64,000 nucleotides of DNA from Apostichopus japonicus (Eukaryota > Echinodermata > Holothuroidea > Aspidochirotida > Stichopodidae): assembly GCF_037975245.1 (NCBI RefSeq), contig NC_092574.1, positions 5,076,713 through 5,140,712 of the forward strand. The letters run 5' to 3'. A program made the translations under genes and the position numbers. Under the pieces are notes generated by a model. The model was not told the origin of the DNA. It worked only from the letters and a program-made list of their open reading frames with translations, and did no database searches. The first letter of the stretch is position 1, and every line of letters begins with the position of its first letter. This document shows positions 33,229 through 64,000 of this stretch, in pieces.

Positions 33229-36200
33229 ATGGAGTTTCCAGATCTTGGCCAACATTGTTCAAATTCATCATGCAAGCAGCTTGGTAAGTATACCTTTCTT
33301 CTGCCTTGTTTATTAAAGTATGACTAAGTATGAGAAGCAATTGTAGCATTAAACAATGGCAATCTTTTGTCGCTCATAGAGAAAGCTACATCATTGACTC
33401 AGAGATGGCTTGCCAGGTTCAAATTAAAGAAACAACAAAGTGGCTAATGGCTATTCTTACGACTAGTCGTAACAATAATGACCTTTTGCGCATGCGCAGT
33501 TGCTATTTTTACGACTAGGAGTACTATTTTTAAGACCAGGAGTAACAATAATTTTCGGTTAGGGTTAGGTTCAGGGTTAGGGTTGGGTTGGATTGAGGGT
33601 TAGAGTTAGGGTTACCCCTACTACATGCGCAGTTGCTTTATTTACGATGAATTCGCCGATGTCGTAAGAATAGTTTATAAATAATTGTTACGACTAGTCG
33701 TAAGAATAGCCACGGCCAAGACACAAACTGTGTTGCTCTTTGGAACTGATTAAATGGTGTACCTATGCTTGTTCTGCCAACTTTTGTATTGGATTATTTA
33801 ATTCATGTTTATGCTTTCAACATAACTTTTTAATGGGGAAACAGACACTGGAACTTTAAGACTGTCATTTTTTTTTTTTTATGATCATCAATGGTAATAA
33901 GATTATTATGACATTAATATTATACACCACAACTCCTCCTTTCTCATTTTTAGATTTCCTTCCAATGAAATGTGATGCTTGCTCTAAAATTTTCTGGTAA
34001 GTATACTTAAAAGGATCGAATATTTTCCTCTGGCTCATAAGTATGTTTTAATGTTTTATTGATTTATGTAGAAAATATCTCAGAACTTTTGAAACAAATA
34101 TCATATAGTATTCTATTATGCTATTTAGGACATAATTATGAAACATGCCATCAATAGAAAATTGATTTCCTTTGTGTAATTTAGTTCATTCAAAGTATTG
34201 AGAATGACTTAAAGATTGAGTGTAGCCCTTAAGGGATATTTCTGTGGCAGAAGTGTGACATTTAGACGGAAAAGAAAAACATTCCAGACTGTTAGTCGTA
34301 AACCCCAATATTGTGTCCCTAACTCAAGATATGATTGATTTAATCATGAGTGGAACCTATTTTGAGTCCACAATTCTACCCTGGAGTGGATCAAAGCTAA
34401 TTGTCTGTGATGTCACAACTGCTACTGTTCTTCTACAGTTTTCTTATCTTTATTATTTCTGATACCTATCCTTAAGGTATAGATAATATGAAATCTGGAA
34501 CGAGTCATGCTACTTAAAGTTCCATGCAAAACAGCGATCTTCAGGCAAGTGATTCCGTTAAACCTGAAAACTCCCTTTCGATCAACCTCACAGTTTTCTC
34601 CTTCCACGGTTCAGTGACCCTCTATGTCTGTATTTGGACACAAGCTCGCTTCTTTCGTTGAGTAGGTTTTCTTTCTGCAAAGTGAGCAGTGATAATCACT
34701 AGCATTCTTCTGGGCACAAGTTGAACTGCGCAGTGATCTTGAACATTGACACAGACACAGGTTTGTTACTAAACAAACAGTATGGAATTTCTATGATTCC
34801 TTTCATGGGTTGGAATGAGGACCTAAAGTAGTTGAGCTTGACCAACAAACACTATGAGAAATAGCAACTGAAATATGTTAATTAGTAGTTTCTGTTTTCT
34901 CAATAGCAAACAACATATCAAGTATGACACGCATGGATGTGAAGAAGGTTACAAGAAAGTAAGTAATAGGTCAACATTTTAGTAAATTCATTGCCAAGGG
35001 ACCTATCAAGGGACCAAATCTAATTGTGTCTGTTACCATATCATGAGAAAATACTGTGAACTGTAAAACTTGAGTCTTTTTTCATAAGCCCTGTAGATCA
35101 TTTTTCACTTAGCTGATGTTCTTTGTGATATCTCTGACAGGATGTCCAAGTCCCTGTGTGTCCATTGTGTAACAAACCCGTTCCAGGTCGCAGAGATGAG
35201 GCACCAGATATTAGAGTCTCGGAGCACATTGACAGAGATTGTCAGTCTGACCGAGCGGTCAAAAAGAGAAAGGTCTTTGCTAACAAATGTTCAAAAAAAG
35301 GATGTAAACAAAAGGAGGTAAGTTGTCACTTGCTGGAAAAGTGCCATCTAACTTCAAAATGTCAAAACTTGAGTCTATGACTGTAAACATTAATGCTTTG
35401 TAAAGAATATGTAAGTAACTTCTATTTGCCACTTGAGTAACTGTAGGAAAATTTTCATATTTAGATTGCAAAATATAAGAAATCCTCACTGATGAAGAGA
35501 GCTGCATAAAGAATTTGAGGCACAAGATCTTGCTACTTTTGGCAATGCATACATGACAACAAAATTGATAAATACCTGTTCAAGTTTTCAGTCAATGTTT
35601 ATTTTAAATCGACAAAGTAAGACCTGAAAATTTTCAAAATATGTATCGTTTTTTTACGAAACATTGCATTAGTTATGCAAGTGAGTACAGTATGCTAGAA
35701 ATGAACTTATTCAAGTTTGGTTTGTGACTTATTAATGAAATGTAGTCACATACTGTATAATTTAATGTTATTGACATAATCACAAAATTGACAAAATTAT
35801 ATCTATTGATGGCCATTCATATGCCATATCTTCTAAGAGAAATCAAAGAATTATGAATTTGCCAAATAATTATGACAGTAATATGTCATGTACTTTATAC
35901 TCCCATTAGTTTCTGAGTTCTAATTTTAGCTTGTTAATGAGTTACTGTGTGGGTGGGACCATCAAACCATCTTTGTTCTCTCTCAACAGTTAATGCCTAT
36001 AGTATGCGACTCCTGCAGACTTAACTTTTGCCTCAAGCATCGCCATGCATTAGACCATGCCTGCAAAGGACACCAGGGTAATCACGGCTCAGGCATCACT
36101 AACTCAGGGTATGTTCCATCAAATATCAGCATATCACATCTCTTCCTTTTCAGTCTGATTATCATAACAATATTATCAGAATTTTCACATAAGAAGCCTG

Positions 36201-39200
36201 TTGACCTCATAGTTTAAAGAATTTTTTATAAAAAACAATTGACTGGGACATCCATATTTGGCTGGGGAGGGGGGCTGGGGGGGGGAGGAAACATTTATGT
36301 GTGGTCAGGGGCAGACTAGGACACAAATTGACAATGTCTCAGTGATCCAACTGGTGGTGCTAGGTAATTTAAGAAGTGGTGGCTCTGTGACTTATTCAAA
36401 TCTTCAGTCTACTGAAAGGAAAGACACACTACCCAAGTTGAATAAGTTTGTTGTAGCTGCTTTGGGGATCTCTATATACCTAGGTTAGTATTGATGGTTG
36501 GGTTTGCTTCTTCTTCTTCTTCTTCAATGTATTGTTGCTTTGGTCAAGTTCATGATTTTATCATTTTATACTAATGACACAAAAATTCATTTGTTAGATG
36601 CCAATAAAGGAGCCTCAATAGTCTTGTGGTAGGCCATTGAACTAGATTTTTGGCATTTTATGACCATTGACCACATATTCCATAGGAAGGTACTGGTTTC
36701 TTTGTAGTCAGAGTGAAAATATTGACACAGGGTAAAGCTCTCGTCACCAAATTTAAGATTTTTACAGTACAATATATAAACAATTATAAGTTGCAAGTTT
36801 TTGGTATTGCCTGTACCATAATCACTCGCCTATCTAAAGTGTTTTAGTTCCAGAGAATAAGTACAAGAAGATGGCCGGCATTCATAAAAAAGCTTATTCA
36901 TTTGATGTTTATTACATTGTTTTGCTTACGTTAAGGTTTGCTGCAGTGAATAGAGCTCAGTCTTCTTCCAACAAAACCAATAGTAAACAACAGCTACCGA
37001 AATCCAAGAGGGAGCCTCAAAAGACTACTTTAGTGAACATTGGAGCAGATTTAGCACGGTAAGATCATTCAATTCTGATGATTTAGTTTAGCAAATAGCA
37101 CACTGGACGTGTTACGACATGATCATGAAGAGGCCTTGTAGTTCTACTTAATGTGATTCTAGGATATGGTTGATATCAGAAGAAAATTTGTTTGTTTTAT
37201 TGGTCAAACTCTATATAAATGCCTTACTTTGATATGTAATTGCAAAGTGCATACATGCATAGCAGATTAGAATAATAGCTTGGATGGTAAATGATATCAA
37301 TATAGTATAAATGCCATTCGTAATTCAAAACTTGACTGAGTCACTAAACACCACCAGATGTGGATATCATCTCTAAAGGAATGGAATCTTTGATGTTTTT
37401 TCTCTGTAGTGAGCGAAGAGAAAGAGAGATGTCTCGGCAGAGAACGACTCCACCTGTGTCCAACGCGTACAGCATGCAGGCTGGAATGGTAGGTCATTCT
37501 TACTTTGTTGTACAGGTTATTTGGGTTGACAAGGGTGTTATGTACTTCTAGTAAAGTGATGTCTGTGAATTCTTAGCTTACAATTTTGCACACTGAACTA
37601 CACAGTCCAGCTGCTTTGAATTAATGGTTTGCTAATCAGTAAGTGGAAAATTCCCCAGCTTGCAGTTATCTTTCTTAACTTTATAGTAAAATTTTATTTA
37701 AGTATGTTGTAAGTAACTGTATGACAAGTCTAATTACAACTTACAGAATGAATACATTGTTACTCAGAGATAACATGGCTGATAGTATATGGAAGCTGCA
37801 ATAGTTTCTAACTTTGATATACATAATGCCTTATGAACTCACTCATTTTGCCTGTTTTAGGAGTGAAATCCCAAATTGTCTATAAACAAATGGAATATAT
37901 ACATTTAGGCATAACTTACCCATGGTGACAGTTTCACAGTCAATTAATGTCATTTCAACATGTAAGTAAAATTCAAAATTGTTACATATATACCTTAAAT
38001 GACTGCAAACTCACAACAGCAATACAGCATATCTTTTGTCAGTGTTCCACAAAATTAACTTGCACAGATATTCAAACCTCTGCTGGAATGGTTGCATTGA
38101 AAATGCCATTGAAGTCGTACAGGTTAATTAACAGGAGCCCTTTTTGTTGCATCTCAGTACCGTTTAATACATCAATTTGTAAAATGATTATCTTTCTCGT
38201 TGAGTAAAGTTATTTCCTTCTCTTAATAATATAGTCGGAAGATGAAGCAATGGCCAGGGCTCTGCAGCTTTCTCTAGCCTCAGATGCGGGTCCTCCATCT
38301 GACAACGTACCACCAACACAGACGCAACAAGAGGAGGCAGATCTGGCACTAGCGAGGGCACTAGCACAGAGTGAGGACGAACAGAGGAGGCAACAAAACC
38401 AAGTGAGATCAAGTACTGTCCTTCTGAATGTTTTTGCAACCATTCAGGTTTTTTGATTGATATGATTAAGTCATCTCTCACTCACTCTCTGTCTTCCCCT
38501 TCCTGTCATTCCTAAAACTTGATTAAATGTTTCTGAAGTAGCGCTTTAACTGTGGAACACTGTAAGTGGTCCTCCCAACATGTGGTTATCCAACCTTACA
38601 TATTTAAGCCGGGTATCACTTTGGGGTGATTTAATAGTAGGTTTATTTTATTCCCATAATCATCCTTATTCCACACAGTTGATCAAAGCTTCTCTCAAAG
38701 CTGGACAACTTGTACTCGCAGGCTAATCTGCTTGTCCACAATTATGTTATTTTCTGAATTGACATGTAGTTAAGTCTCATCTCTCTTGTTCTTCTGCAAA
38801 AGCTGTTCCACTCAAATAACATCACAGGGAATAATTTAGTGTTCAAATTTTGTGTAGCAGTTTTCAAAGGCTCTGAATTTTATTCTCTTGTTGAATACTA
38901 TATAGTTCCTGTGTAGAATACATCAATGTATCTATACACTTGTATAGCACTCTTTACCATTTTGTTTGGCATTTTGTGAATGCTATACTCGATAAATTAT
39001 TCCCCGCATCAACCATACTGTAGGATTAACATTGTTCTCTCAGAGAGAATTCTCTATGTCTAGGGCCAGTTAATATATTTAGCCTCGCCTTTCGCTTTCT
39101 GTCTGCCATACTTGTCCTCTTTCCCATTTTAAATCTGTATTTGTAAACTTTGTACACTTCGACTGTTGACTAGTGAATGCCCTGCAGAATACAGTCATAG

Positions 39201-42144: not shown

Positions 42145-44423
42145 TCATTTGTCTGTTCTTGGCTGAAAAGGATCACTCCATACTCTCATTCCTGCAAACA
42201 CAAAACACATTGAAAGGATGAAACTTCAATATTGTCAACAAAGGAGGGATTTATCATTTTTCTCTTCTATTCTCCAGGCAACCTCTGCCAAATAAGTGTC
42301 ATGGTTGTTTGCATTGCCCAGCTCTGTGTTAAAAACCACACAAGCCTTTCATAGATAACATATAGATCAACTTTCCAAAGTATGAATATGTATAGATTTA
42401 CCAATCACAGCGACAGCTATTGGTTGCTAACAGATCCATATCTCAGCTCCTTGTCTATGTGCCATCCAGTTTCTTTGTAAAACATTTAACATTTCTTTGT
42501 AAACTTTTATATTTCTTTTATGTCAAAGAATCAAAGCACTTGTATACTGACAGTTTGAATATCCTTCCATCTGCCAAAAACCTACGACAACTGCCAATAA
42601 AACAATATGACAAATGCCTTCATCAAACTTTAAAGGTGTGAAGACTCGCGTACAAAGAAATGTCTCATGCCGGTAATCTGACCTAGTTTCAAATGAGGTG
42701 TAACAGAAGTGTTAGACACCACCATCGATCCCAGTAAATACACATACAGCTTGCTACTGTCGGTACATACAGCAATAGGGTCAATACCCACAACGCAGCA
42801 TACATAGCAGGGATGGACATCTCAGGTCTAGATAAAAGATAATAAGGTATCACGTTTCATAACTGTGTGTATTTTATAGCAACAAGAAGAAAACATCACT
42901 TGCAAACAACGGAAAGTTAACTTTTCCAGAGCGCAGCAGACGGTTTTGGGCGAGTCTTCAATGCCTTTAAATTCTGGTAGTCTAATCTTTCCATTAAAAT
43001 GGAAAAGATTGTAAGGAGTTGTAACCAAATCTGAGGTCATTCTGAAGTACCAAACTGACTGCCACCTTCACTCAAAATTATAATTCCCACTTGCTAAAGA
43101 ACTTGGTTAGGCTGTTGAATTTTAGCAATAGCTTTGACTGTGTGATGTTTGGACCAGCAGATTGCAGAAGTTATACCTTTCCCACTACAGCAAAATGACA
43201 CCTTAGAAAACATGAGTAACTAATGAACAAAATGTAGTCCAATTTCTGGCAAAGGGTTGAAATTATGGTTTGAGAATAATTTGCTGAGGGAGTTGTTACT
43301 AAGGAAGCTCAATCCCAAATTATTGCCACAGATATTTGGATGAAACCCCCCCACCCGCCCCCGATCCCTCCGCAACCAAGCCTGTGCATTTCAGATACTT
43401 GATACATTGTTTGCTTAACCTTTGCTCTGGGACTAAATGCAAATTATCATTTTCTCACAATCAAGACTAGTCAAGTTGTTTCTCTAAGCTGAAAAACGAG
43501 CAAGGCTGCTTGATTCAAGCTAGTAAAAATGAAATTAAGACATTGATGTTAATTTCTGATATATTTTGGCAACGAGAAAGATTAATACATACCACCTGGC
43601 TGGACAGAAGATTGATTTATATCCTTCCTTGCCTCTTTCTGGATTTCCTCTTTGAAATAAAGAAAAGCATAACAAACACATGATGTTTAAAGAATGGCAG
43701 TAGAGTGTCATTCATGATATGTTCAAGTACTTTTTAATCTCAATTGGGCAATGATGTAACCAGCACATTTGGCTTATCCAAGCCATAAGGGATACAAGTG
43801 TGGTAACAGTGTTGTGTGTGAGAGGTGTGGAGGGGGGGGGGGGTTGTGCATAATGGAAATGGAAAAAAAGTGGAAGACATAAGATACATATCATTGTAAG
43901 AATAATTCAGATTTTTTCATGTTTGGAATAGCTAAATATACAACATTAATAACAGGAAATACTACAATGTAGAAGGATTCATAGTGGATTATCTTCAAGC
44001 AGAGATTGATTATTTACCTTCCATCCAATTGCTGCAGATACATTTTGAACAGTTCAAGAAGTCACTACTGGTAAGCATCATGTGATAAATGTGTGCTGTT
44101 TTGTACAGATACCTTTGGTTAACAGCACCATGTGTGTGTGTGTGCATTGGATAATAATAAATTTACTTTTTGTATTGTTTGATACAAAAAAAAAACTACA
44201 TTTGCACCTCTGCATTTAGATAGCAATTGAAGGGATACAAGATTTACTCCCTTTAATGAATGACTGGTAAATCTTTATAATTTTCTTGTCATGTTTGTCT
44301 TAAAAATAACTTACTCCATGGCTTTGGGTTGATCATTGGTGAAAACACAACAGGGTACAAAGCTGCTCCAATGCAAGCAACAAATCCACCAATCAGAAGT
44401 GTTGTCTTTCTTTTAGCAGACAT
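42145..44423 (-). CDS. SMIM20: Small integral membrane protein 20 / MITRAC7 (3 exons)
   Basis: Mitochondrial inner-membrane protein that stabilises newly made COX1 in the MITRAC intermediate of complex IV assembly. Exons on the - strand: 44315-44423, 43593-43649, 42145-42191. Phases 1 and 1 match; the sum is 213 nt, 70 aa (human 67). The protein begins MSAKRKTTLLIGGFVACIGA, with a single membrane span at about residues 8-30 (GGF…IGAALYPVVFSP, as in the vertebrate protein). A charged stretch KEIQKEARKDINQ follows, then VQPGGMRVWSDPF and QPRTDK. The VWSDPF block is the hallmark of the family and is the source of the peptide hormone phoenixin in vertebrates. It is too short per exon to be found by ORF length, and is recognised by homology plus splice phase. 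An extra 5' noncoding exon is possible. Confidence 0.92.
42632..42968. mobile_element. Short TIR element (MITE), copy 2
   Basis: The same family as 2434-2630. The left end is AAAGGTGTGAAGACTCGC, the right end inverted AAAGGCATTGAAGACTCGCC. Shared inner words are acaaagaaatgtc, gtaatctgacctagtt and gaaagttaactttt. It carries about 140 bp absent from copy 1. It lies in SMIM20 intron 2. No convincing target duplication. Confidence 0.65.
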
Positions 44424-44939
44424 CACAGCACAGAACCTTGAAAAACTAATATGATCGGGATCTGTGGGAAATAATGTTTAAAGTTACAGCATCTAGTGAC
44501 AATATTTTAGGACGTTCAAACTCACATAACAACATGGAGATATTACATTATATGAGAGATGAAAGATTGGAAAATTGAACGTTGGCATTTGACTTTGAAA
44601 TGCAGATACACATCATCAGATCCATCGCAAGTCCTGAAATCCTGAATAAGGCAGTGTCTTTGTCTACATGTGATAATAAAATTTGTGTAGATATTGATAC
44701 CATTAAATTTTCATCCACTAAATATCAACCTGTAATGAAACAACATTTTTTTTTCGTATCATCTCTCCAAATTGTATCTGAACTGTTTTGTTGAACAGAT
44801 ATGTAACTTTCACCAATATTTCTTGCCAATTTACTTAGATTTTGACTGATCAAAAAACATGTGATACTTTTCATAACCAGGACACTTCTACTGTTTACCA
44901 TAACCTTTACTGTGCCTTTTACCTGGCAACAGGGTACAC

Positions 44940-45470
44940 CAAGGGCGTAGGAACCTAGGGGGCTGGGGGGGGCAGCCCCCGGTGAAATATATGGGGGGGC
45001 GGAAGTATCATTCCGCCCCCCTCCCCCCGCTCTGCAAGTCAGAAAATCCCTCTTCCTTTACTGTGCCTTTTACCTGGCAACAGGGTACACCAAGGGCGTA
45101 GGAACCTAGGGGGCTGGGGGGGCAGCCCCCCGGTGAAATATATGGGGGGGGGGCGGAAGTATCATTCCGCCCCCCCCCCCCCCCCCCCCCCCCCGCTCTG
45201 CAAGTCAGAAAACCCCTCTTCCATTTCCAAATAGCATCTAAGGCCAGGTGAAAATGCAAAATTATTTATAAAATGGAGTGAGATGTTGAAGTGTGCTATA
45301 GATATTGCACCAAATTGCATCTGAGGCCACCTGGAAATGCAAACAAATTCCAAAGGAGAGAGGGACACCCCCTCCCCTTAGACCCGGGGGACACCCCTCC
45401 CTTAGACCCCTCCCCCAGGGCGGCCATCAGTCTTCAGCCCGCCATTCAAAAGTACCTTCCTATACCACTG
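44940..45470. mobile_element. hAT-like MITE family 1, copy A (internally duplicated)
   Basis: Starts CAAGGGCGTAGGAACC and ends, inverted, like CAGTGGTATAGGAAGG. It is flanked by a perfect 8-bp duplication GGGTACAC (44932-44939 and 45471-45478). A 151-bp tandem duplication (44941 equals 45092 in register) covers the left end, the left target duplication and some host flank, so a second internal start is present at 45091. Long C and G runs (45173-45194) are included. No coding capacity. Confidence 0.8.
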
Positions 45471-45727
45471 GGGTACACAAAGAAATGCATGAAGTTCAGT
45501 ATTCCAGAGCTACCAGACAAGGAAGGACTAATGCCAGCACTATTGGTCGTGCTGCCAAGGGAATAATCGAACATGAAAATGTTGATAACATGACGGCTAG
45601 ATAAATAAGCACTAACACAATACTGTACCTAAACGTCTGTCCGCCGGCAAAGAAAATGACACTCATTTAAAGAACCTATTTGTGTTTCTAGCTTTGTAAG
45701 ACTGTAACCTATTCCATCAGGTGTGGT

Positions 45728-46066
45728 CAAGGGCGTAGGAACCCCCCCAGTGAAAAATATGGGGGGTGGAAGTATCATTCCGCCTCTCCGCAAGTCAGAA
45801 AACCACTTTTCCATTTCCAAATGAGACAAAAATCTCATTTGGAGCACCAACTTGCATCTAAAGCCAGGTAAAAATGCAAAATTATTTACAAAATGGAGTG
45901 GGTGTTGAAGTGTGCTACTGTATATTGCACCAAATTGCATCTGAGGCCACCTGGAAATGCAAACAAATTCCAAGGAGAGAGGGACACCCCCTCCCCTTAG
46001 ACCGCTCCCCCAGATCGGCCATCAGTCTTCAACCCCCCCACTCAAAAGTACCTTCCTACGCCACTG
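45728..46066. mobile_element. hAT-like MITE family 1, copy B
   Basis: Begins CAAGGGCGTAGGAACC and ends, inverted, CAGTGGCGTAGGAAGG. It is flanked by a perfect 8-bp duplication GGTGTGGT (45720-45727 and 46067-46074). Body shared with copies A and C: ccaaattgcatctgaggcca, ggaaatgcaaa, cggccatcagtcttca. Confidence 0.85.
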
Positions 46067-47167
46067 GGTGTGGTGGAGAAGAAAGTGCAGTACCATAACA
46101 TTGTTAAAATTCTAGTTCTAAGGATTAAATTATAGAAATACTTACATGATCTAAAAAATGTCTGTTTCTCAAAGTAAACATGGATTGCTATGGCTAATTA
46201 GCATACAGATGAAAGCCTAGCCTACTTTACATAACAACGCACTGTTAACACATAAGCTAATGCTGTAAATTGGATAGCCATCTGACCTGAAGTGTAACTT
46301 ATAAATGTAAGCCATTCAACTTCTCCCAAAAACACACATGGCTGTTTAACATCAGCTCAAATTGCTACAGTGTTATAGAAACATCGATTCTATATTTTGT
46401 AGCCCTGTCAGGAATTATTGCACCCATTAAATAGATGATACAATTATTAGTGAAATTTATCCTTCAGTCCTTGGGGTCAGGATATTGACATAGCCTAACA
46501 ATATTATGACAGAATCTAATCAATCCATCTATGAAACCACAAATAGAAAAACGTTTGTCTTTACAGTTATCCTTTAAAGAATGTGTAGCATGGTGGGCTC
46601 ATAATTGATGCACTTAAGGATTTGATTAACGATGTCTATCAACGAAAAATCCAAATCACTCAAGTGTATTTGTTTTTCATATGTGTAGTTCCTCAGAAAT
46701 GTAATGATCTCATAATAGTTATTGTTCTGTGCATATATGCAACGTACAAATGATCGGAATTTAACCACAAAATGTCTGCCGTGTCAAATTCTTTCATACC
46801 CCTAATGTGACACATTTTTCTATATAATAACTGCAGTGTTACCTCTAGCCTTTGTAGGCCTACAGTAACTTATGCTGTTTGCTATGCTCTGAGCCTCTAA
46901 GCTATGTTTGGTCAGGTCCCAGAAAGTAGTGGTATTATATTTTGCTAAGTTTGGCTATTTTTAGGGAGTAAGATTTCTAAATGCCCAAAAATGTGCAAAA
47001 GTGGGGGGATGGTTTAAAAGAAAAACACAATTTGATCAGTATATACCTGAAATGGATTAAAACTCATCAAATGTGCAACTCTGCTTGACTGCAAAAAGTT
47101 TAGGTTACCTGCTGTATTGTTGCTGGTAATATTTGAAGGTGTGTCAATTATGAAGCCTTCACTATAC

Positions 47168-49173: not shown

Positions 49174-50868
49174 CTAACCATATAATGTTTGCAACATCCT
49201 GCCTGGATTGCCTGTAATGTTCAATCCCTTTTCATGGAGAAAATTCATTATTTCCCCTGTGTTGGAATATTTTCCTACATTCCACCAAAAATCATGACTC
49301 TTAAAGCCTGATGGAAAACATGGTGTCTGATAGGTGACCAGAACCTGTAATTCACCCAATTTGTATCGAGCATGTTGGACTTTCATGTCTCCTTGTGGAG
49401 CATTCGCAAAAACTTTCTTTTGCCTTAATATGCTATCTTTGATGGAAGGATATGGAATTGCTAATCCTTCATTATGTGCTCTATTCTCTAAAAAGGATGC
49501 AACATTCATTGGCTTAGTGCTCACAAGACACATGATGTGATCTGAAGTTACCCCTGGCAAAATGTTACCAAACTCATCATGAAACTCAATATGTGCATCT
49601 TGCATGACATTAACATTTTCTGCATTAGAAGTGTTACTACTCAAAACATTTCGCATTCGTGCAAGCTTTTCACTTGATGGACGTTTTGTTTTCAAGACCT
49701 GACGCAATTTCTGAATGTTGGTGATATTCTTAGTTTCAGAAGATGCTCTTACAAAACATGGTTTAAGCCTGTTATAATTGAATACATCACTAAGAATTTC
49801 TCCTTTGAGAGTGGCCAACAAATAATGAGTCCTATCCAAAACTTGATGGATCACTAATGGTCCACACCATTCTGCAGCAATTTTGCGAGAGTTCACAGTC
49901 AAGGAGGAAGACGTTGGCTTATATAGATACACTAATTGACCCGTTGAATAAATTGCACCTTTGTCTAGTTTTGCACTTATCTTAACATTTTGAGCATCTT
50001 GTTGCTTCTTTTGCAAGACTAACATTACCCTTGACAAATGATCAAATCGTTTCTTTAACAATGCAGCATATTCTCCATGAGATTGTGATAATCCTGCCAT
50101 TGGATTGAACGATAAATTTGTAAGATTTGGTGGCTTACGTCCAAATGCAAGTTCAAATGGGCTATAGCTACCTAACTGAGGAGAGGAAAATGTGTTATAT
50201 GCATAGGCTGATGTTGGGACAAATCGTACCCAATCCGTACCGAACTGATTTAAGTTCACTTTGAGGAAATTTGAAAGAGTCTGAATGTGTCTTTCAACCT
50301 GTAAGCTTCCATGATTGCTTACACTGATGAACTTTTGTTCAATGCCTAAAGCTTTACTTAAGAGCTCCACTAATTTTCCTGTAAGAGAAGCTGCCGCATC
50401 ACTTATGATACAAGACGGTGGACCAAAAGTTGTGACTACCCTCTGCAATAATGCTTCACATATTGTTTCAGCATCAAGAGTCTTAAGAGAAACACATACA
50501 ACAAATCTAGTGATCTCATCACAAACAACCATCAAATGTTTAAATCCTGTAGCCGTTGTGGGCATAGTCTTGAAATCCAGACTAAGTCTGTCAAAAGGAC
50601 GATAAGAATCAGGAATGCGAGCATGATATTGTCTCAATTTGTCCGGTTTCTTACGGAATTCTTGACAACGGAGACATGCCTGAATATAATTACTGATGCG
50701 TTGAAACATATTGCGCAGATAGAAATGCTGTCTAATGGTCAAATATGTACGCATTACACCCTGATGATTACTTAACAAGTCATCATGATATCGAGATATT
50801 ATCTGTTCTACCATAGTCTCAGGTACGACTAACTGAAGAGTCATCTTAGCATCATTAGTCTCATGCAA
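49174..50868 (-). CDS. pol: Pol C-terminal part: integrase (behind an in-frame stop)
   Basis: Same frame as the RNase H segment but separated from it by one TAG. Zinc-binding HHCC region (YHDDLLSNHQGVMRTY, then CLRCQ). DDE core: LSLDFKTM (first Asp), IISDAAASLTGK (second Asp), QVERHIQTLSNFLK (Glu). Downstream comes a GPY/F-type module (EWCGPLVIHQVL, RLKPCFV) and a long C-terminal extension of unknown role ending at 49174. No chromodomain is evident. Confidence 0.88.
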   Translation of the reverse strand: MHETNDAKMTLQLVVPETMVEQIISRYHDDLLSNHQGVMRTYLTIRQHFYLRNMFQRISNYIQACLRCQEFRKKPDKLRQYHARIPDSYRPFDRLSLDFKTMPTTATGFKHLMVVCDEITRFVVCVSLKTLDAETICEALLQRVVTTFGPPSCIISDAAASLTGKLVELLSKALGIEQKFISVSNHGSLQVERHIQTLSNFLKVNLNQFGTDWVRFVPTSAYAYNTFSSPQLGSYSPFELAFGRKPPNLTNLSFNPMAGLSQSHGEYAALLKKRFDHLSRVMLVLQKKQQDAQNVKISAKLDKGAIYSTGQLVYLYKPTSSSLTVNSRKIAAEWCGPLVIHQVLDRTHYLLATLKGEILSDVFNYNRLKPCFVRASSETKNITNIQKLRQVLKTKRPSSEKLARMRNVLSSNTSNAENVNVMQDAHIEFHDEFGNILPGVTSDHIMCLVSTKPMNVASFLENRAHNEGLAIPYPSIKDSILRQKKVFANAPQGDMKVQHARYKLGELQVLVTYQTPCFPSGFKSHDFWWNVGKYSNTGEIMNFLHEKGLNITGNPGRMLQTLYG

Positions 50869-50883
50869 AAATATCCTGAATAA

Positions 50884-52107
50884 CTAACTATTACATAACA
50901 AATAATCCTCTGCTTGAGAACGAACAGTTCTAGCATGCTTAACATTACTTGGAATAATGTCATGTGCAAGAAAATCATAAATTGGTTTGTAATAAGGACA
51001 AGTTTGTTGTTGAATTTGCAACTCAAATGGCAGATCATAGTTTTTGATCAGCTTTCCTTGAATTGCCTTCATGACTTTATTCAATTCCTTTTGTTTTGGA
51101 ATGTGCCCTGTAACCAAATGATCAATGTTTGTTATGACTGGCTTTGGCTGAACAAATAATTCTGGTGGTGGTTCTCTGACTACCTCTCGCACTCTATGTC
51201 TACTCTGATCCACTAATCTTGGCTCTGAAGGTGGAGAAACACTTGTAAAATTTGGCACAACTAACATGTCAGGGCTAAATGTATGTCGATTTTCACTCGG
51301 CATAGTAATAGTAGGCCTTTGAATATATGTTTCTCTCTTGTCAGTAGAAATTACTGGTGTAGTCGTCTTTTGTGACTCAGATTGTGGTCTCTGTGTAACA
51401 TGCTCATTAGAATGTGTTGCCTTAGGAACGGATGTCCTTTTAACTCTATTTGTTGATTCTTTGGCTGGGGAATCCTGCTTGAACTCCTTTGTGACTTTAT
51501 TCGGAAATAAATCTGGAACTTTGACTCCCATTGACCTTGCCTTTGACCTTGTCATGATTGGATTAAATGTCTCCTTTGGTGGAGTTGAAAAATCCTCATA
51601 AGAACTGACCTCTTGAGCAACCTGATCTATTTCAGAGTGAAATTCCTGTGGTGCTCTAGACAAATAATCTGCCAAAACCAATTCTGAGCCCTTTTTGTAA
51701 CCAACCTGAAATGTATATTCTGACAATTTGAACAGAAGCTTACGTAAGCGTGAAGTTGCTGGTTCTTGTTTTGATTTGAACAATTCAACAATGGCAGAGT
51801 GATCAACATATGCCTCAAATTCTACATTTTGCAATAAATGTTTGAATGCTGTCACATTAATAAATAGACCCATCATTTCTAATTCAGTGACACTATACCT
51901 CTGACATGCTGGTGGTAATATCTTAGAGTAATATGCAATAATATTCTCTTTGCCATTAACTCTTTGGGTCAAGTATGATCCTGTTGCTACTCGTGATGTG
52001 TCGCTATATAATACAAAACGACCATATTTCTGTGGCATATGCAGTATAGGTGGATTACACAACAACTCTTTAATATTTGAAATGCACACTGATGTTCCTC
52101 TGTCCAT
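50884..52107 (-). CDS. pol: Pol middle part: RNase H and linker (frameshifted from RT)
   Basis: Continues the family order in a different frame from RT. It opens with the connection and an RNase H start (FVLYSDTSRVATGSYLTQ; then EAYVDHSAIVELF and GYKKGSELVLADYLSRAPQE, typical of Ty3/gypsy RNase H). A Pro/Ser/Thr-rich linker follows, then the beginning of the integrase region. It ends at TAG 50884-50886, which lies in frame with the integrase reading frame that resumes immediately afterwards. The break from RT looks like a single small indel near 52080. Confidence 0.85.
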   Translation of the reverse strand: MDRGTSVCISNIKELLCNPPILHMPQKYGRFVLYSDTSRVATGSYLTQRVNGKENIIAYYSKILPPACQRYSVTELEMMGLFINVTAFKHLLQNVEFEAYVDHSAIVELFKSKQEPATSRLRKLLFKLSEYTFQVGYKKGSELVLADYLSRAPQEFHSEIDQVAQEVSSYEDFSTPPKETFNPIMTRSKARSMGVKVPDLFPNKVTKEFKQDSPAKESTNRVKRTSVPKATHSNEHVTQRPQSESQKTTTPVISTDKRETYIQRPTITMPSENRHTFSPDMLVVPNFTSVSPPSEPRLVDQSRHRVREVVREPPPELFVQPKPVITNIDHLVTGHIPKQKELNKVMKAIQGKLIKNYDLPFELQIQQQTCPYYKPIYDFLAHDIIPSNVKHARTVRSQAEDYLLCNS

Positions 52108-54101
52108 TTAAATACCTTTCTCTTACGACTCAAATGATGTAATGGTCTCAATAGTGCTTGAATATTTGGGAAAAATGAAGCCACATAATTAACTGCACCT
52201 ACAAATCGTCTTACTGACTTAACATTGTGTGGTTTCGGTGTGTTCCTGATTGCTGCACATCTGTCATGCAAAGGTTGGATACAAGCCTCACCTTCTGGGG
52301 TTATTGAGAGCAAATGTCCCATATATCGGACTGAATTTTGAAAAATGCTACACTTTTTCGGAGAGATTTTCAATCCGTTGTCCATTAAAACCTTAAAAAT
52401 TGCCTGTAGGTGTTGTTTGTGAGATCGTTTGTCTGCACTGTACACAATAATATCGTCATGATGAGCAATACAGAACTTATTTGAATTTGGGATCGTTGCC
52501 AAAATATCATTAATTTTCGACTGAAAGATAGCTGGAGATAAATTCAATCCCTGTGGTAAGCGTTTATAATAGTAATGCTTTCCTCCATGAAATGAAGCAA
52601 TACCTGTATATTGTTGTGCATGAACACTGAGTGGCAGACAGAAGAATGCAGACTTTAAATCAAGAACACCCAAAATTTTGGCTCCAGAGTACCCTATGGT
52701 ACGGATAGTCTCATTCAGTAATGGAAATGGGTGATTGAGACGTTTTATTCTACTGTTCAAGTAGCGAAAATCTGTGACAACCCTTTTGTCTTTTGTTCCC
52801 TTCTTTGGAATGAGGAAAACTGGTGAGGTATAAGACTGATGTCCTACCGCTAAGATTCCTAATCGCACTAATTTGTCAAGCTCACTGGCGACAATGCCTT
52901 TGTCCTCATCTGAAAGTCTATAGGGACGTATGTAAAATGGCTCATCATTAGTAAGAGCAATATCAGCCTCATAATTTGGACAGTGAGATAATTCACCATA
53001 AAGAGAAAATGCATCTCTATGTGAGTCTAGAAATTCATAAATGCTTTCTGTTTCTGAAGCATTCAGAATACTTTGTTCCAAATGAATGTTATCTCTCATG
53101 ATTTCCTGTTCGGATTTGGAAACCAGGGGATCATCGGCTGTCAAATGTGGATAACGATGTAAATTATATCGTGTAATTGCATCACGATTCTCTTTGGAAT
53201 TGGAATTGTTTTGAAAAAGAGACGGTTTTTCGATGTCTCTCATGACATTCAGAAAATCGAGAGAATCAGTAGGTATGTCTTCTGTGACCGTAATGATATC
53301 TGCTAAATCTAAATGAGCCACTGTGCGAGAAGGATGCAGACAAAATTTCTGGTTACACATGTTCCTTAGTAGAATCTTTGTTCTACCTTTATGCATTTTC
53401 ACTAACATTTGTGAAGGACACATACGAGATATTAAAGGAAACGGTTTAATAACCACATCTGCATTTCGTGCATATAGTGGAAGACGTCCCTGTACAGTAA
53501 TGTATCTTTGCTGACCTGGGTAAATTACAAATCTCTGCACTGGCCTAAGGAAAACTTTGGCTTGTTTAATTCGAAAACAATTTGTGGTAAAGTCCAAAGA
53601 TCCATTCAATTCCTTCAGAGTTTGACTACCTAATATTAAGTCAATACCTGTCAGGTTTGCAGCGATTAAAGCAGAAAGCTGAAATTCATGACCCTGAATT
53701 TTGACCTGAAATGTTATCGTGCTATACGCATGAATAAACTGACCATTACCCAACTTTAGGTTTACTACATCAACTGAGACAGGTTGTATAGAGGATAAAT
53801 ACTTTGAATTTTGCACTGTAGAAGAAGAAATGATAGAGCGTGTCGCTCCACTATCAAACAACAATGAAATTCCTTTACCATCATGTAAAGTACCTCTTAC
53901 AAAATTACGTGTGTCCAGTTGAATATCCACATTACGGTCGTTCCCTGTATATCTAGAACTAGGAATATTACTATTCTTCCAAATATTATTTGCTTTACGT
54001 TTCGATCTTCCTTTACTTGGTACATTGTCTGGAGTCACTGTATGATGAGTGCAATCATAAGTGCTCCCTAATGAAAATTCTGTGTTGGTACTTTCTTTAC
54101 A
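51987..54101 (-). CDS. pol: Pol N-terminal part: protease and reverse transcriptase
   Basis: Open from 54101 (just after an in-frame TAA) in the -1 frame relative to gag, so probably reached by ribosomal frameshifting in the 34-nt overlap; no start codon is needed. Aspartic protease motif LFDSGATRSIIS near the start. Reverse transcriptase blocks: VLDLKSAFFCLPL, PQGLNLSPAIFQSKI, the catalytic segment AHHDDIIVYS (the usual Y/F-x-D-D has His in the first position), and SPKKCSIF with YMGHLLS. After the thumb and connection (FKWTEEHQCAFQ) the true frame is lost near 52071-52085. The next 30 codons to the stop are out of frame relative to RNase H. Confidence 0.9.
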   Translation of the reverse strand, partial: CKESTNTEFSLGSTYDCTHHTVTPDNVPSKGRSKRKANNIWKNSNIPSSRYTGNDRNVDIQLDTRNFVRGTLHDGKGISLLFDSGATRSIISSSTVQNSKYLSSIQPVSVDVVNLKLGNGQFIHAYSTITFQVKIQGHEFQLSALIAANLTGIDLILGSQTLKELNGSLDFTTNCFRIKQAKVFLRPVQRFVIYPGQQRYITVQGRLPLYARNADVVIKPFPLISRMCPSQMLVKMHKGRTKILLRNMCNQKFCLHPSRTVAHLDLADIITVTEDIPTDSLDFLNVMRDIEKPSLFQNNSNSKENRDAITRYNLHRYPHLTADDPLVSKSEQEIMRDNIHLEQSILNASETESIYEFLDSHRDAFSLYGELSHCPNYEADIALTNDEPFYIRPYRLSDEDKGIVASELDKLVRLGILAVGHQSYTSPVFLIPKKGTKDKRVVTDFRYLNSRIKRLNHPFPLLNETIRTIGYSGAKILGVLDLKSAFFCLPLSVHAQQYTGIASFHGGKHYYYKRLPQGLNLSPAIFQSKINDILATIPNSNKFCIAHHDDIIVYSADKRSHKQHLQAIFKVLMDNGLKISPKKCSIFQNSVRYMGHLLSITPEGEACIQPLHDRCAAIRNTPKPHNVKSVRRFVGAVNYVASFFPNIQALLRPLHHLSRKRKVFKWTEEHQCAFQILKSCCVIHLYCICHRNMVVLYYIATHHE

Positions 54102-55018
54102 TTAGCCTCCATTTCATGGCTTAGGCGAATTTGACAATATTGTGCAAAATGACCTCGATTTTGGCAGTAATGACATGTGATTGAAGGATTAAAATATGGT
54201 AACCTTCTCCTGTTATTATTCTGACCTGTCCTAGGACCACGAGAATCACGAGAACTATATCTTTGCCTCATATCTTTTGGATTGTCTTGTGATTCTGACC
54301 TACGTGACTGATCAAACTTGGTCTCTAATTCCTGAATTTTGGTACACAACTCGTGTATCTCAGAAGATGCAGAAATAGTAGGAGTCTGAACAGAAGACGC
54401 TTTGTCGTGCATTGCCATAAATAGTTCGGAAGAAGCTGGGGGTTGACTTTGGATTTGTAAGTCAAAATAGCATTGTACTTTCATGACCAAATCTGCAATT
54501 GTTGCTTTTGGTGATGCAGACATTAACACTGCTGAGCGACATTGCAAAGGCAGGGTCGAGATCAATTTATCTCTAATTTGGTCCTCGTCATAACTTAATT
54601 GTGCTGCAGCTTTGGAAATTTTGGCCAAATGAGCCTGAGCTGTATCACCTGGCGTATAGCTTAATGCGTGAAATGCCTGTGATTTAGCGTAGGAAGAAGT
54701 CCCTGGACTGAAACGAGCAAGGAATTGCTTGCGCAGATCAGCAATAGTTGGAAAATTTTTGTTCTCAATCCAGAGTCTGGCTTGGCCTTTAAGTGTTCGC
54801 TTAAATATGCGACATATTTCATTAAATTCTTCCGCTACAGGGGTGGTTTGGGACGGCAATTTATGCACCTCTAAATAATCCTCAAATCCCAAATAATGAG
54901 CTTCGGCTAAATCTGCATCAATTACATCGCCCTGAAATCGTGATGGCAAAAAATCAGTGGGCCTATGTTTCTGCATAACATTAACAGAGGTCGAAGTTTC
55001 CTGTTCACTGACGGACAT
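54068..55018 (-). CDS. gag: Gag (capsid and nucleocapsid) of the Ty3/gypsy element
   Basis: 316 codons on the - strand, ATG at 55018. The middle third resembles the retrotransposon Gag family (LKGQARLWIENKNFPT, then a DLRKQFLARF segment). A Gln/Ser/Arg-rich linker leads to one CCHC zinc knuckle, CHYCQNRGHFAQYC (C-x2-C-x4-H-x4-C), near the C-terminus. It is intact. The stop TAG is at 54068-54070. The downstream pol frame is open from 54101, so gag and pol overlap by about 34 nt, with pol in the -1 frame relative to gag. Confidence 0.9.
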   Translation of the reverse strand: MSVSEQETSTSVNVMQKHRPTDFLPSRFQGDVIDADLAEAHYLGFEDYLEVHKLPSQTTPVAEEFNEICRIFKRTLKGQARLWIENKNFPTIADLRKQFLARFSPGTSSYAKSQAFHALSYTPGDTAQAHLAKISKAAAQLSYDEDQIRDKLISTLPLQCRSAVLMSASPKATIADLVMKVQCYFDLQIQSQPPASSELFMAMHDKASSVQTPTISASSEIHELCTKIQELETKFDQSRRSESQDNPKDMRQRYSSRDSRGPRTGQNNNRRRLPYFNPSITCHYCQNRGHFAQYCQIRLSHEMEANVKKVPTQNFH

Positions 55019-55670
55019 TATGCCGAATACAATCCTAGGCTAGTTATGAGTATACAACATGAGCCTAGACTTAATTGAACACACTATCGACCGCAATTAA
55101 ATACAAATAACAAATATGCAATACATGGACACGATTAAAATAACTTATCGGTACACTCTGATCTCAAATAGGGGTTGGGATATAAATTGGCATGATTTCA
55201 CTCACCCTTAAGTTTAACTAAGAACTGGTAGTGGAACTGCAAACGATGATTGAAGCCCCTCGGTTAGCAGTAGTAGTAGTAGTAGCAGCAGGTAGTAGCA
55301 GGTAGGCCTACATCTCGTAAGAACTTCAGATTCGTTTGCCGTTAACATCGGGTAGAGCCTAGGCTTACATCGCGAAAATGTTCAGTTCTGATGTTTAGAG
55401 CTGTAGTATTCTACGTACTGGTTGCGCGAATGTTCAAACGCGAACTGCATGCTGGGTTGATTAACGTTAGTGTACAGATCAGTGGTTCCGGTGTACAGAC
55501 TTAGGCTAGTATAGGCTGACTTCCCTCGTAGAGTGTGTATGTTAGGCTAGGTCGTGAACATGCGTCGTGTTCCTCGTTAGGTCTTCGGGCCAAAAAAATC
55601 TCCTGTTCGTTATTGAACGTAACGAACGAAAGTTGTGAAAAGTTCCGTTACCGTTTTGTTCCTGAAGAAA
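55019..55670 (-). other. 5' leader of the Ty3/gypsy element
   Basis: Untranslated leader between the primer site and the gag start. It contains a short AGT/AGC-type microsatellite (55266-55300). The 97-codon frame across 55542-55835 spans the LTR edge and has no recognisable content. Confidence 0.6.
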
Positions 55671-60921: not shown

Positions 60922-62331
60922 CTAATCATTCAATCCAATCTCTGCTACCCTCCTACGAAGGTTCTGTGCCATAATACCGCCATCGTCTAGTGTTTCATAA
61001 TATTGTTGTAAATTTTTTTGGGCCTTCCTTACAAATTTAGCAGTTTCACAATAAGCAGAAATAGCTACATTTTTCGTTATTTCAAGTGCTGTCTCTATCA
61101 CATCTTCAAACGCCTTTGCGATATTTTCATTTACTTGATTTCTATTAACAATAAACAAGCTATCAGCGCGTCGAAATTGAACTTCGATCAAATAATACGG
61201 AGAGCCTTTGTGCTCCTCAATCATACCGTTGAACATTGCCTGTGCCTCCTCATTACGTCGCGCCTTACCCAACGCAATCGCTTTGCTTAGTTTACCTTGA
61301 AAGTAAGAAGGTTCTAGTTCAAGACATTTATCAATATATATCATTTCCAATCTTTTATATTCGTCCTTATCATTCCTGTCTCTGGCATCGGCTGCTAAAT
61401 ATCGGTACACAATCGATAACTGTAGAAACAACTCGGATCGGGGATGCTGAAGCTCTTCGCCTTTACGTAAAACATCAATGGCTCTTTTATAATCACGCAA
61501 ACGAAGATAAAAGCTACCTTTTTTTATTATAAGTTCACATGTATTTGCGTCAAGGTTGGCCATGAGATCTTTGCCCTCACCGACTCGATCTGGCATTCTC
61601 AGCAAAACCTTTGCTAGGTCACATTGTGCCGACTTGTTTCTTGGTTCCAATTCAATCGCTTTCTCGTAGCACTGAATCTCATCGTCGATGCCATCGTACG
61701 GTTTACTGAACTTATTCGACCCAAGACGAGCATGTCGACCAATAACTGATCCAAGAGCTTGATACCACGCAGATCTAGTCTTGATGGTCTTCAGTGCTTG
61801 CTGATATCTTCTTTCGGCTTCCTTGCATGTATTCGGTCCAAGTCTTGTAAAAGCAAAAGCAGCAGTAGCGTCTATGAAGGCTTGAAGTCTGTCTTGAGAG
61901 AGCTTATCTCGATGTCTGCTCCAGCTTTGTTTTAATTCTGCGAGAAGTCTCAATCGTCTGTCCTCATTCTGGTTTCCCTCGTGGATAGTTTCCAGAACCC
62001 ACAACCTGTTTGCATTTACAATGATGATGTAAGCCTGACGTTCATCGTCGTCTGTTACTCTCATGGCTTCTCTCTCCGCTTCCGCGAAGAACTCTTCTGC
62101 TTTCTGAGAGTTACTTTGCACCCCTTCAAAGTTAGAGACCTCTAGATATCCTCTGAATAGCAGCATATCACAGGCTGTCTCCGTCCATTCTATCTCATTT
62201 CTGGTTTCCAAATCACTATCGAGTTTGTTTGCTATACCCTTTAAATCTAACATAATGTTCTGATCAAGTTTCCAATTGAAATGGCAAGGAACCTCCTTCC
62301 ACCAATCTGGTATAGAATGACAACCGGCCAT
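60922..62331 (-). CDS. IFIT-like tetratricopeptide protein (single coding exon)
   Basis: 469 residues from ATG 62331 (context ACAATGG, A at -3, G at +4). Vertebrate IFIT proteins are interferon-induced, all-helical TPR proteins that bind non-self RNA ends. The N-terminal motif CHFNWKL (about residues 16-22) matches the CHFTWEL-type start that is diagnostic of IFITs. The length fits (human IFITs 472-490). Several TPR helices are visible, for example EIQCYEKAIELEPRNKSAQC, YLRLRDYKRAIDVLRKGEEL and YIDKCLELEPSYFQGKLSKA. An acceptor (ttgttcttctatag, AG at 62341-62340) lies eight bases upstream of the ATG, suggesting a spliced leader exon, as in vertebrate IFITs. If it is not spliced, an ATG at 62376 would add 15 residues. 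Ligand-binding residues cannot be checked here, and antiviral function is inferred. Confidence 0.85.
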   Translation of the reverse strand: MAGCHSIPDWWKEVPCHFNWKLDQNIMLDLKGIANKLDSDLETRNEIEWTETACDMLLFRGYLEVSNFEGVQSNSQKAEEFFAEAEREAMRVTDDDERQAYIIIVNANRLWVLETIHEGNQNEDRRLRLLAELKQSWSRHRDKLSQDRLQAFIDATAAFAFTRLGPNTCKEAERRYQQALKTIKTRSAWYQALGSVIGRHARLGSNKFSKPYDGIDDEIQCYEKAIELEPRNKSAQCDLAKVLLRMPDRVGEGKDLMANLDANTCELIIKKGSFYLRLRDYKRAIDVLRKGEELQHPRSELFLQLSIVYRYLAADARDRNDKDEYKRLEMIYIDKCLELEPSYFQGKLSKAIALGKARRNEEAQAMFNGMIEEHKGSPYYLIEVQFRRADSLFIVNRNQVNENIAKAFEDVIETALEITKNVAISAYCETAKFVRKAQKNLQQYYETLDDGGIMAQNLRRRVAEIGLND

Positions 62332-62339
62332 TGTAGAAT

Positions 62340-64000
62340 CTATAGAAGAACAATATGATAAACAATACACTGGCATATTTTATGTAAACAAACTTGTGAG
62401 GTCCTTGCGATTATGAATGAAAGCATATATCTTATCGGTTTATCTACTGAGCATGAATTTATAACAGAGATATGCAGTGGCGAAGCTAGAGATAGGGGAG
62501 TGTGCATGGTAGAGTCCTTCATAGAATTTTAGGGGACGACAAAATTCAGTGGCAAAGGAAACATAAGTAGCTATGATATATGCTTTACGATATATGCTAC
62601 TTGTTCTTTTAGCACGTCGTGATCTGCTTTTTCTCAGGTTTGCCTCATTAGCCATACTAATCATAATTGAGATTTCTTAGAGAAGTTAACTTTGATTCAG
62701 TATGGCACTGGAATGTCGTCTTCAACATAAAACAAATTTCCGTTTGAGTCATTGTGATATGAGATACCTGGGTATACCTACTCACAAATACTATCTTGTA
62801 ATTGTAAATATGTTACATCTTTAATATATTAAGTTCCGTAGCCACTAGGATCATGGAAACACATGCATTATTCCCTCCCTTTCCCGCAAAGTTGCATGAA
62901 ATGATGAATTATAGCATCATTTTACATCTAAACCTTCTTACCAAATACAATGATTCTGAAAGTGGAAGGGACAAGTACGGACGTCAGTACATTTATAATC
63001 ACTCTTCCTTAAGCTTGAATACGTAATGGAAGGTAGTGTCCATATGGTGTCATGAAAAGTCATGTAAATACAAGCGTTAAGTAAACTTAAATTGCCTGAC
63101 TGGGAATGGCAACATTTTGCATAATTTTGATCCCCTTACCGTAATCAATGTTCACAAAAGGGAGGGGAAGCCCTCCTCTTAGACAACATTTTATATTTTT
63201 GTTCTCATTTATAATTATCTTTAATTTTTATACTGAAATAATGGAATGAATTATGTGACACAAAAATAACCAGTCAGCAAACCTGTTGTGTGTTTTCAAT
63301 GATGCTACATGAATAATCTTATATGAATGTGACACACTAGGCTGTAGCGTTATATAGTCAGGATGACCAACATACTTCAATCCAAGTAGCACATCAAAAG
63401 CATTGACATACGACAAACAATATTCACATTGGCAACTGGTGACCGAGATTGATCTCTACCAAATGCACCAGGCTTCTCCTACTCAAAGTGGTACACCTCC
63501 AAGAGGTACATTTAGCAGGCGCCTGGCTGATTTTACCCCCTGGTCCCCAAGATTTTGATTTTGATTTGCCTCTAAAACACCTAGGCGACAAACTAGGCGT
63601 AAGTTATTTTCGTAAACGGCGTCTGGTCAATTCCCAACGTTACTACATCCAAACCTGAAGTTTTAATTTGGCCCTGAATTTCGAAATACGACGGAAAACT
63701 TCAACAACGGAGGCAAAGAAATCATACTAATTACTCAAAATGATATGATCCTCTCCCGTTTTTTGTGTTTCATTCCCATTCTCTCTCCGTGTATCTCATT
63801 GTGACCGCCCCCTGGCTACGCGCTTGGATATCCCTATCCAAACACATATATAACACTTTTCTATGTTGGCATCGTTCAAATTAATCAATACCCTCCGAAA
63901 TTGTTAAATACATGCAGAGTGAACTGTACTTTTGAGTCTAAGTTGCTGATCTCATTCTTACAGCAGGGATATCATAGAACACGTACATAAATAACTAAAT
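62340..64000. other. Upstream region of the IFIT-like gene, no further gene found
   Basis: It holds a CAGTGGCGAAGCTAG word at 62474, which resembles a hAT-type terminus but has no partner that I could find. No interferon-response-type GAAANNGAAA element was recognised. A short + strand frame near 63449-63658 has no support. Confidence 0.4.

Follow-up and report, generated by a model that had tools for sequence, protein, structure and literature searches.

The SMIM20 gene, whose product is known both as MITRAC7 and as the phoenixin precursor, bears on what phoenixin primarily is, a hormone or the by-product of a mitochondrial protein. Excerpts of PMC5809144 and PMC7582755 describe the human protein as stabilizing COX1 in a late assembly intermediate, an excerpt of PMC10706208 reports amidated PNX-14 detected by mass spectrometry in pig ganglia, and the proposed phoenixin receptor is questioned in the excerpted text of PMC9004410. 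Animals that have the phoenixin block but no capacity for amidation separate the hormonal from the mitochondrial role. Here, we analyze such a case in a 64,000-nt stretch of sea cucumber DNA, referred to below as the window, and set its SMIM20 protein against sequences from across the animals.

A complete SMIM20 gene in the sea cucumber window

A complete three-exon SMIM20 gene was read from the genomic sequence on the minus strand of the window (Table 1). Its introns, 665 and 1401 nt in length, are both GT-AG introns of phase 1, with exon 2 in phase 1 at both ends and followed by the donor GTATGT. The 70-amino-acid product, MSAKRKTTLLIGGFVACIGAALYPVVFSPMINPKPWKEIQKEARKDINQSSVQPGGMRVWSDPFQPRTDK, matched Pfam family PF15061 (DUF4538; 79.1 bits, cut-off 27, E=2e-22), and it covered profile positions 4-57 of 57, which places it within this family. 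When the window protein was used as the sole query, the homologue search returned one match, which is also the nearest relative found in the analysis, the SMIM20 protein of Holothuria leucospilota (P0001), with 81% identity (57/70 residues), no gaps, and a span across both splice junctions. Because this identity extends over all 70 residues and both junctions, chance can be excluded for the gene model. Two crinoids and a sea star in the sample were 51-57% identical to the Holothuria leucospilota protein. Judged by these sequence comparisons, the window gene is an ordinary holothurian ortholog of SMIM20/MITRAC7.

Table 1. Features of the SMIM20 gene, with positions in the window
Feature	Position	Strand	Description	Basis
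SMIM20 exon 1	44315..44423	(-)	encodes MSAKRKTTLLIGGFVACIGAALYPVVFSPMINPKPW plus one base; predicted membrane helix	gene model
SMIM20 exon 2	43593..43649	(-)	linker and start of phoenixin block, ..ARKDINQSSVQPG plus one base	
Arg44-Lys45	43624..43629	(-)	at the position of the PNX-20 N-terminal basic site	sequence
SMIM20 exon 3	42145..42191	(-)	includes stop codon TGA	gene model
End of phoenixin block	42166..42191	(-)	(G)MRVWSDPF	gene model and pattern scan
Tail	42148..42165	(-)	QPRTDK, without Gly donor or dibasic site	x-Pro-Arg form in 5/5 echinoderm sequences

Other stretches of the window were noted in passing. On the plus strand, an AN1 zinc finger (PF01428, E=1.1e-9) lies at 35930-36217, and a further frame at 38235-38456, which had no Pfam match, contains what we take to resemble ubiquitin-interacting motifs; the two possibly form a ZFAND2-type gene beside SMIM20. 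Frames rich in glycine and proline, with repeated segments, lie upstream of SMIM20 exon 1 at about 44900-46100 and have the look of a dispersed repeat. Retrotransposon-like frames occupy 49174-55039 on the minus strand; of these, 49174-50883 contains Integrase_H2C2 and rve domains and 54068-55039 gave no Pfam match, while two more frames lie at 50884-52107 and 51987-54101. Also on the minus strand, a 485-aa open frame at 60922-62379 contains tetratricopeptide repeats (PF13428 and PF13431 above cut-offs), an arrangement that we regard as reminiscent of IFIT-type proteins.

The phoenixin block ends in a tail that lacks the amidation signal

The first-pass annotation of this DNA had read the third exon as the end of the phoenixin block followed by QPRTDK and a stop, and the gene model agrees to the base, with 42191-42145 being exactly exon 3. 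The codons after VWSDPF are CAG CCA AGA ACA GAC AAA TGA, i.e., QPRTDK and stop. A precursor of amidated phoenixin would carry Gly and one or more basic residues right after WSDPF, as well as basic residues for cleavage ahead of the PNX-20 segment; the sea cucumber protein lacks the former, having QPRTDK instead, but has the latter in R44-K45. The annotation's statement that the Gly donor and the dibasic site are absent is thus accurate after the block but not on its N-terminal side.

The tail CAG CCA AGA lies several substitutions away from an amidation signal, and the sea star Gly-Pro-Arg lies closer. A broader proposal, that echinoderm tails are generally more than one substitution from the signal, was dropped, as Asterias has Gly at the first position after the block (+1).

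Amidation signals are scattered across animals

The comparison sample comprised 237 distinct sequences, i.e., the best 120 of 285 matches from each of two profile searches, whose queries included tails in which R-K follows D, E, or G, together with the Holothuria leucospilota match and the window. Among these matches listed, W[STA]DPF was present in 214/237 sequences and absent in 23; the latter, all from the first profile-search list, are alternative C-termini or block-substituted copies. Tails were counted by group in the 120 named non-mammal sequences among the matches listed, including the window, with species assigned to groups on our own general knowledge. Because each search contributed the best 120 of 285 matches, the named rows contain no teleost, amphioxus, tunicate, or sea urchin.

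Among the matches listed, Gly followed by two basic residues was found in no sequence of 10/16 named groups. The echinoderm tails were QPR, KPR, APR, SPR, and GPR, none of the five (window included) having the signal; in Asterias, Gly at +1 is followed by Pro, so no amidation signal results. The signal was likewise absent from the single hemichordate (ERK), two cnidarians (KKQ and KRK), three molluscs (DRT, DRT, and DRK), and all 14 beetles listed. Within vertebrates, the six chondrichthyans (sharks and rays) listed all had NRK (signal in 0/6), and the nine amphibians had SRK (six), ARK (two), or KNK (one), again without the signal (0/9); GRK was present in 32/34 sauropsids listed. Among the arthropods listed, GRK was found in 3/3 ticks, in 1/7 Crustacea (not all seven being decapods), and in one of two Collembola, the other having KRK. 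The 24 Lepidoptera were divided among GRK (11), DRK (11), ERK (1), and DRT (1), and the six Diptera among GRK (2), KPR (3, the three mosquitoes), and DRR (1); a caddisfly and Odonata had DRK, and Hemiptera had GRG (1) and DRK (1).

Overall, G-[KR]-[KR] was present in 18/71 named invertebrates, including the window in the denominator, and in 18/63 named protostomes among the matches listed. In the first list, the 71 remaining mammalian or unnamed sequences comprised 42 with GRK, 5 with another tail, and 24 outside the script's pattern, these being the 23 without W[STA]DPF and P0052, in which Ala precedes WSDPF and the tail is GRK. In the second list, 6 of 46 unnamed sequences among the matches listed had GRK.

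These counts bear on the first-pass annotation, which had taken Gly-Arg-Lys as the vertebrate reference and phoenixin as a later vertebrate addition, and had set confinement of GRK to vertebrates beforehand as a test. The 18 named invertebrates with G-[KR]-[KR] contradict that confinement; the signal in ticks, Lepidoptera, and others, together with its absence from the chondrichthyans and amphibians listed, speaks against a vertebrate addition and rules out GRK as a general vertebrate feature. As far as the sampled sequences tell, some vertebrates lack the capacity for amidation and some invertebrates possess it. The annotation's point that the block is conserved without the signal for amidated release held up, and well beyond the sea cucumber.

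An ancient block and the rarity of deuterostome amidation sites have been in print since 2022 (PMC9004410, in excerpt). With reference to previous studies, the excerpts of that paper describe the precursors of Xenopus, zebrafish, and fugu as lacking the amidation signature, limit its occurrence among deuterostomes to some vertebrates, and name Tribolium as the sole protostome of its set with it; they also report that two sponges and one ctenophore have an amidation site, call the ancestral metazoan state undecided, and infer a non-amidated ancestral bilaterian phoenixin. Amidated peptides are described as possible from decapod phoenixin precursors in an excerpt of PMC6073857. Our protostome count widens the Tribolium-only statement as it stands in the excerpts of PMC9004410. 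By titles and the beginnings of abstracts, none of the papers listed for phoenixin with sea cucumber or echinoderm deals with sea cucumber phoenixin, the 45 metazoan species of PMC9004410 aside. What is new here is the wider count; the sea cucumber result itself is ordinary and largely expected.

The +1 residue is variable ahead of a frequently basic tail

In the 120 named non-mammal sequences listed, nine residues occupied the +1 position after WSDPF (G 52, D 39, K 8, S 7, N 6, A 3, E 3, Q 1, and R 1), with R at +2 in 108/120 and K at +3 in 103/120. Most sequences without Gly also retained the basic tail: among the 68 listed, R was found at +2 in 57, K at +3 in 53, and both in 50. For invertebrates without Gly, Arg-Lys was present in 34/51 and missing in 17/51 among the matches listed, and 0/5 echinoderms had Arg-Lys after +1, with Pro-Arg in its place. 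The basic pair therefore often persists whether or not +1 is Gly, though not always and not in echinoderms.

A separate pairing was observed between the tail and the residue before VWSDPF. Among the matches listed, Arg before VWSDPF occurred in 8/8 sequences with an x-Pro-Arg tail versus 2/206 others. The eight (the window, P0001, P0122-P0124, P0152, P0180, and P0203) are five echinoderms and three mosquitoes, and near-identical Pro-Arg tails, QPRTDK, KPRPDK, and KPRTDKPE, occur in this Arg-bearing set. The pairing probably has only two independent origins; if the change is coupled, it suggests that the tail and the residue before VWSDPF may share a partner.

The history of the amidation state was examined by parsimony on 134 named tips, 64 of them with G-[KR], leaving out unnamed sequences and most mammal copies; the cladogram was drawn by hand from relationships that we take as general knowledge. 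At least 16 changes were required on the 134 tips, and Lepidoptera alone account for at least 6. A non-Gly root required 16 changes versus 18 for a Gly root, and within vertebrates the numbers were 4 versus 5. When labels were shuffled 500 times, the mean was 48.3 changes and the minimum 38, versus 16 with the real labels. Gly was present in 45/48 amniote tips, making it an amniote state among the vertebrates sampled. Because the amidation state is strongly clustered and Gly is steady in amniotes, it does not drift freely everywhere.

On this pattern, Gly changes readily among insects and holds steady among amniotes, where the steadiness would fit selection for amidation. Low entropy at +1 in sauropsids (Gly, 0.38) was weighed as a sign of such selection but not taken up, because Asp is fixed to the same degree in beetles (0.37) and the six chondrichthyans share Asn. 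The +1 residue varies within single lepidopteran families, for example with Gly in Danaus and Asp in Melitaea, which we take to belong to one family. The wider count thus shifts the amidation question from vertebrates versus invertebrates to one residue that varies within lepidopteran families and is steady in the amniotes sampled, and for this reason the question can be tested with paired close species.

A probable mitochondrial constraint on the block

Conservation along the protein was assessed in an alignment of 65 of 236 sequences, which were chosen by us and did not include the window. In these 65 sequences, P24, P29, Q40, and R44 were invariant outside the block, and Q53, P54, W60, D62, P63, and F64 within it. 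In each of five groups, mean entropy was 0-0.22 bits in the block versus 0.49-0.96 in the linker and 0.32-0.94 in the helix region.

The AlphaFold model of the Holothuria leucospilota ortholog contains helices at 3-31 and 34-43 and a short helix turn at 49-52. The first helix, with a mean pLDDT of 91-97 in the first three ten-residue blocks, would span the membrane. The C-terminus is extended, with mean pLDDT values of 70 and 65 in the last two ten-residue blocks, and an extended, less certain end of this kind fits a segment that may be ordered on a partner. Structure searches gave no meaningful match to a solved structure of the family; two proteorhodopsin matches (E 2.3-2.4) extend over the membrane helix only.

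Because the block is conserved in animals without the amidation signal, its maintenance there cannot be due to an amidated hormone. In an excerpt of PMC11087051, the Nematostella phoenixin precursor is broadly expressed, unlike most neuropeptide precursors in that animal, and is not neuroglandular-restricted. The invariant residues along the whole protein, the low entropy of the block, the model of the C-terminus, this expression, and the COX1 role in humans together favor a mitochondrial constraint, and we infer both this constraint and mitochondrial localization for the sea cucumber protein. The COX1-assembly role, to which the first-pass annotation had attributed the retention of the block, appears from our analysis to be the best candidate.

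We consider it likely, taking the reading as a whole, that a conserved mitochondrial block is combined with a variable +1 residue that creates or abolishes an amidation site. The sea cucumber SMIM20/MITRAC7 would be a membrane protein that stabilizes new COX1 in cytochrome c oxidase assembly, a role extended to it from human cells. Its C-terminal block, VQPGGMRVWSDPF, would be kept for part of this job, and it is probably an extended segment ordered only against a partner. The mammalian amidation signal would amount to one variable residue, +1, followed by a basic tail (in most cases Arg-Lys) whose retention has a reason other than amidation. With Gly at +1, as in amniotes, ticks, and many butterflies and moths, an amidatable phoenixin would be possible; with Asp, Asn, Ser, Lys, Gln, or another residue, as in the sea cucumber, it would not. 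Several observations count against this reading: echinoderms and some other invertebrates without Gly do not have the Arg-Lys pair, the amidation state is clustered on the tree, Arg hardly varies at the N-terminal cleavage position, amidated PNX-14 is reported from pig ganglia (PMC10706208, in excerpt), and the block is not confidently folded in the model.

A further proposal is tentative, and on balance we lean against it: the phoenixin amidation signal may be a recurrent accident, in which a tolerant +1 position before a mitochondrial basic tail turns to Gly repeatedly in unrelated animals (amniotes, ticks, and several families of butterflies and moths), every such change giving rise to a potential amidated hormone, with only some lineages, perhaps amniotes, having kept it. 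If true, a mitochondrial assembly factor would have been co-opted repeatedly to yield the hormone phoenixin.

Alternative readings

A conserved non-amidated peptide is argued for in the excerpts of PMC9004410. Applied to the sea cucumber, a cut at the dibasic R44-K45 would free D46 to K70, or a shorter peptide, besides the mitochondrial role of the protein; because the block lies at the C-terminus, no second cut would be needed. The best argument for such a neuropeptide is that the Arg where the N-terminal cut would fall hardly varies, R being found there in 205/214 sequences among the matches listed, an amniote-heavy sample, as a hormone model predicts. The same excerpts report conserved cleavage regions and conflicting predictions of secretion and mitochondrial targeting. 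However, the cut position is dibasic in 73/214 and monobasic RA in 105/214 of the same amniote-heavy matches, and in the 65 chosen sequences residues outside the peptide are just as invariant as those within it. The signal peptide in the excerpts of PMC9004410 was predicted by SignalP 3.0 only, not by versions 4.1 to 6.0, and the broad expression of the Nematostella precursor (PMC11087051, in excerpt) also argues against a neuropeptide. We therefore regard this reading as unlikely.

An ancestral amidated hormone, later lost in echinoderms, would account for Gly-Arg-Lys in groups as distant as ticks, Lepidoptera, and amniotes among the matches listed, and for the sponge and ctenophore sites in the excerpts of PMC9004410. 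Against it stand the zero counts in the listed echinoderms, hemichordate, cnidarians, molluscs, chondrichthyans, and amphibians, the slight preference of parsimony for a non-Gly root, and the non-amidated bilaterian ancestor inferred in the same excerpts, and we consider such a loss very improbable.

A wrong gene model, with G-K/R-K/R supplied by the true third exon or a second gene copy, would be quite surprising: the tail follows the block directly in frame; exon 3 has no GT between block and stop codon, so no canonical donor could splice in another tail; a pattern scan of both strands of the window found no second WSDPF-like stretch, ruling out a second block-encoding exon there that restores the signal; and the Holothuria leucospilota tail is of like kind.

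Comparison with known systems

The sea cucumber protein resembles the SMIM20/MITRAC7 family in its Pfam match, its length of 70 aa, its one predicted membrane helix, and its C-terminal QPGGM[KR]VWSDPF, and the exon number and intron phases of the gene agree with the gene structures in the excerpts of PMC9004410; it differs in having the tail QPRTDK rather than the usual x-R-K and Arg, not Lys, before VWSDPF. Compared to Holothuria leucospilota SMIM20, it has equal length, an identical block, and the same x-P-R-x-D-K form of tail, whereas the Holothuria tail, KPRPDK, has K at +1 and P at +4 where the window has Q and T. With the mammalian phoenixin-14/-20 precursor, it shares a homologous block and a basic residue at the N-terminal cut position; unlike that precursor, it has neither the Gly donor nor Arg-Lys after the block, and it reads VQPGGM where the mammalian protein reads VQPPGL.
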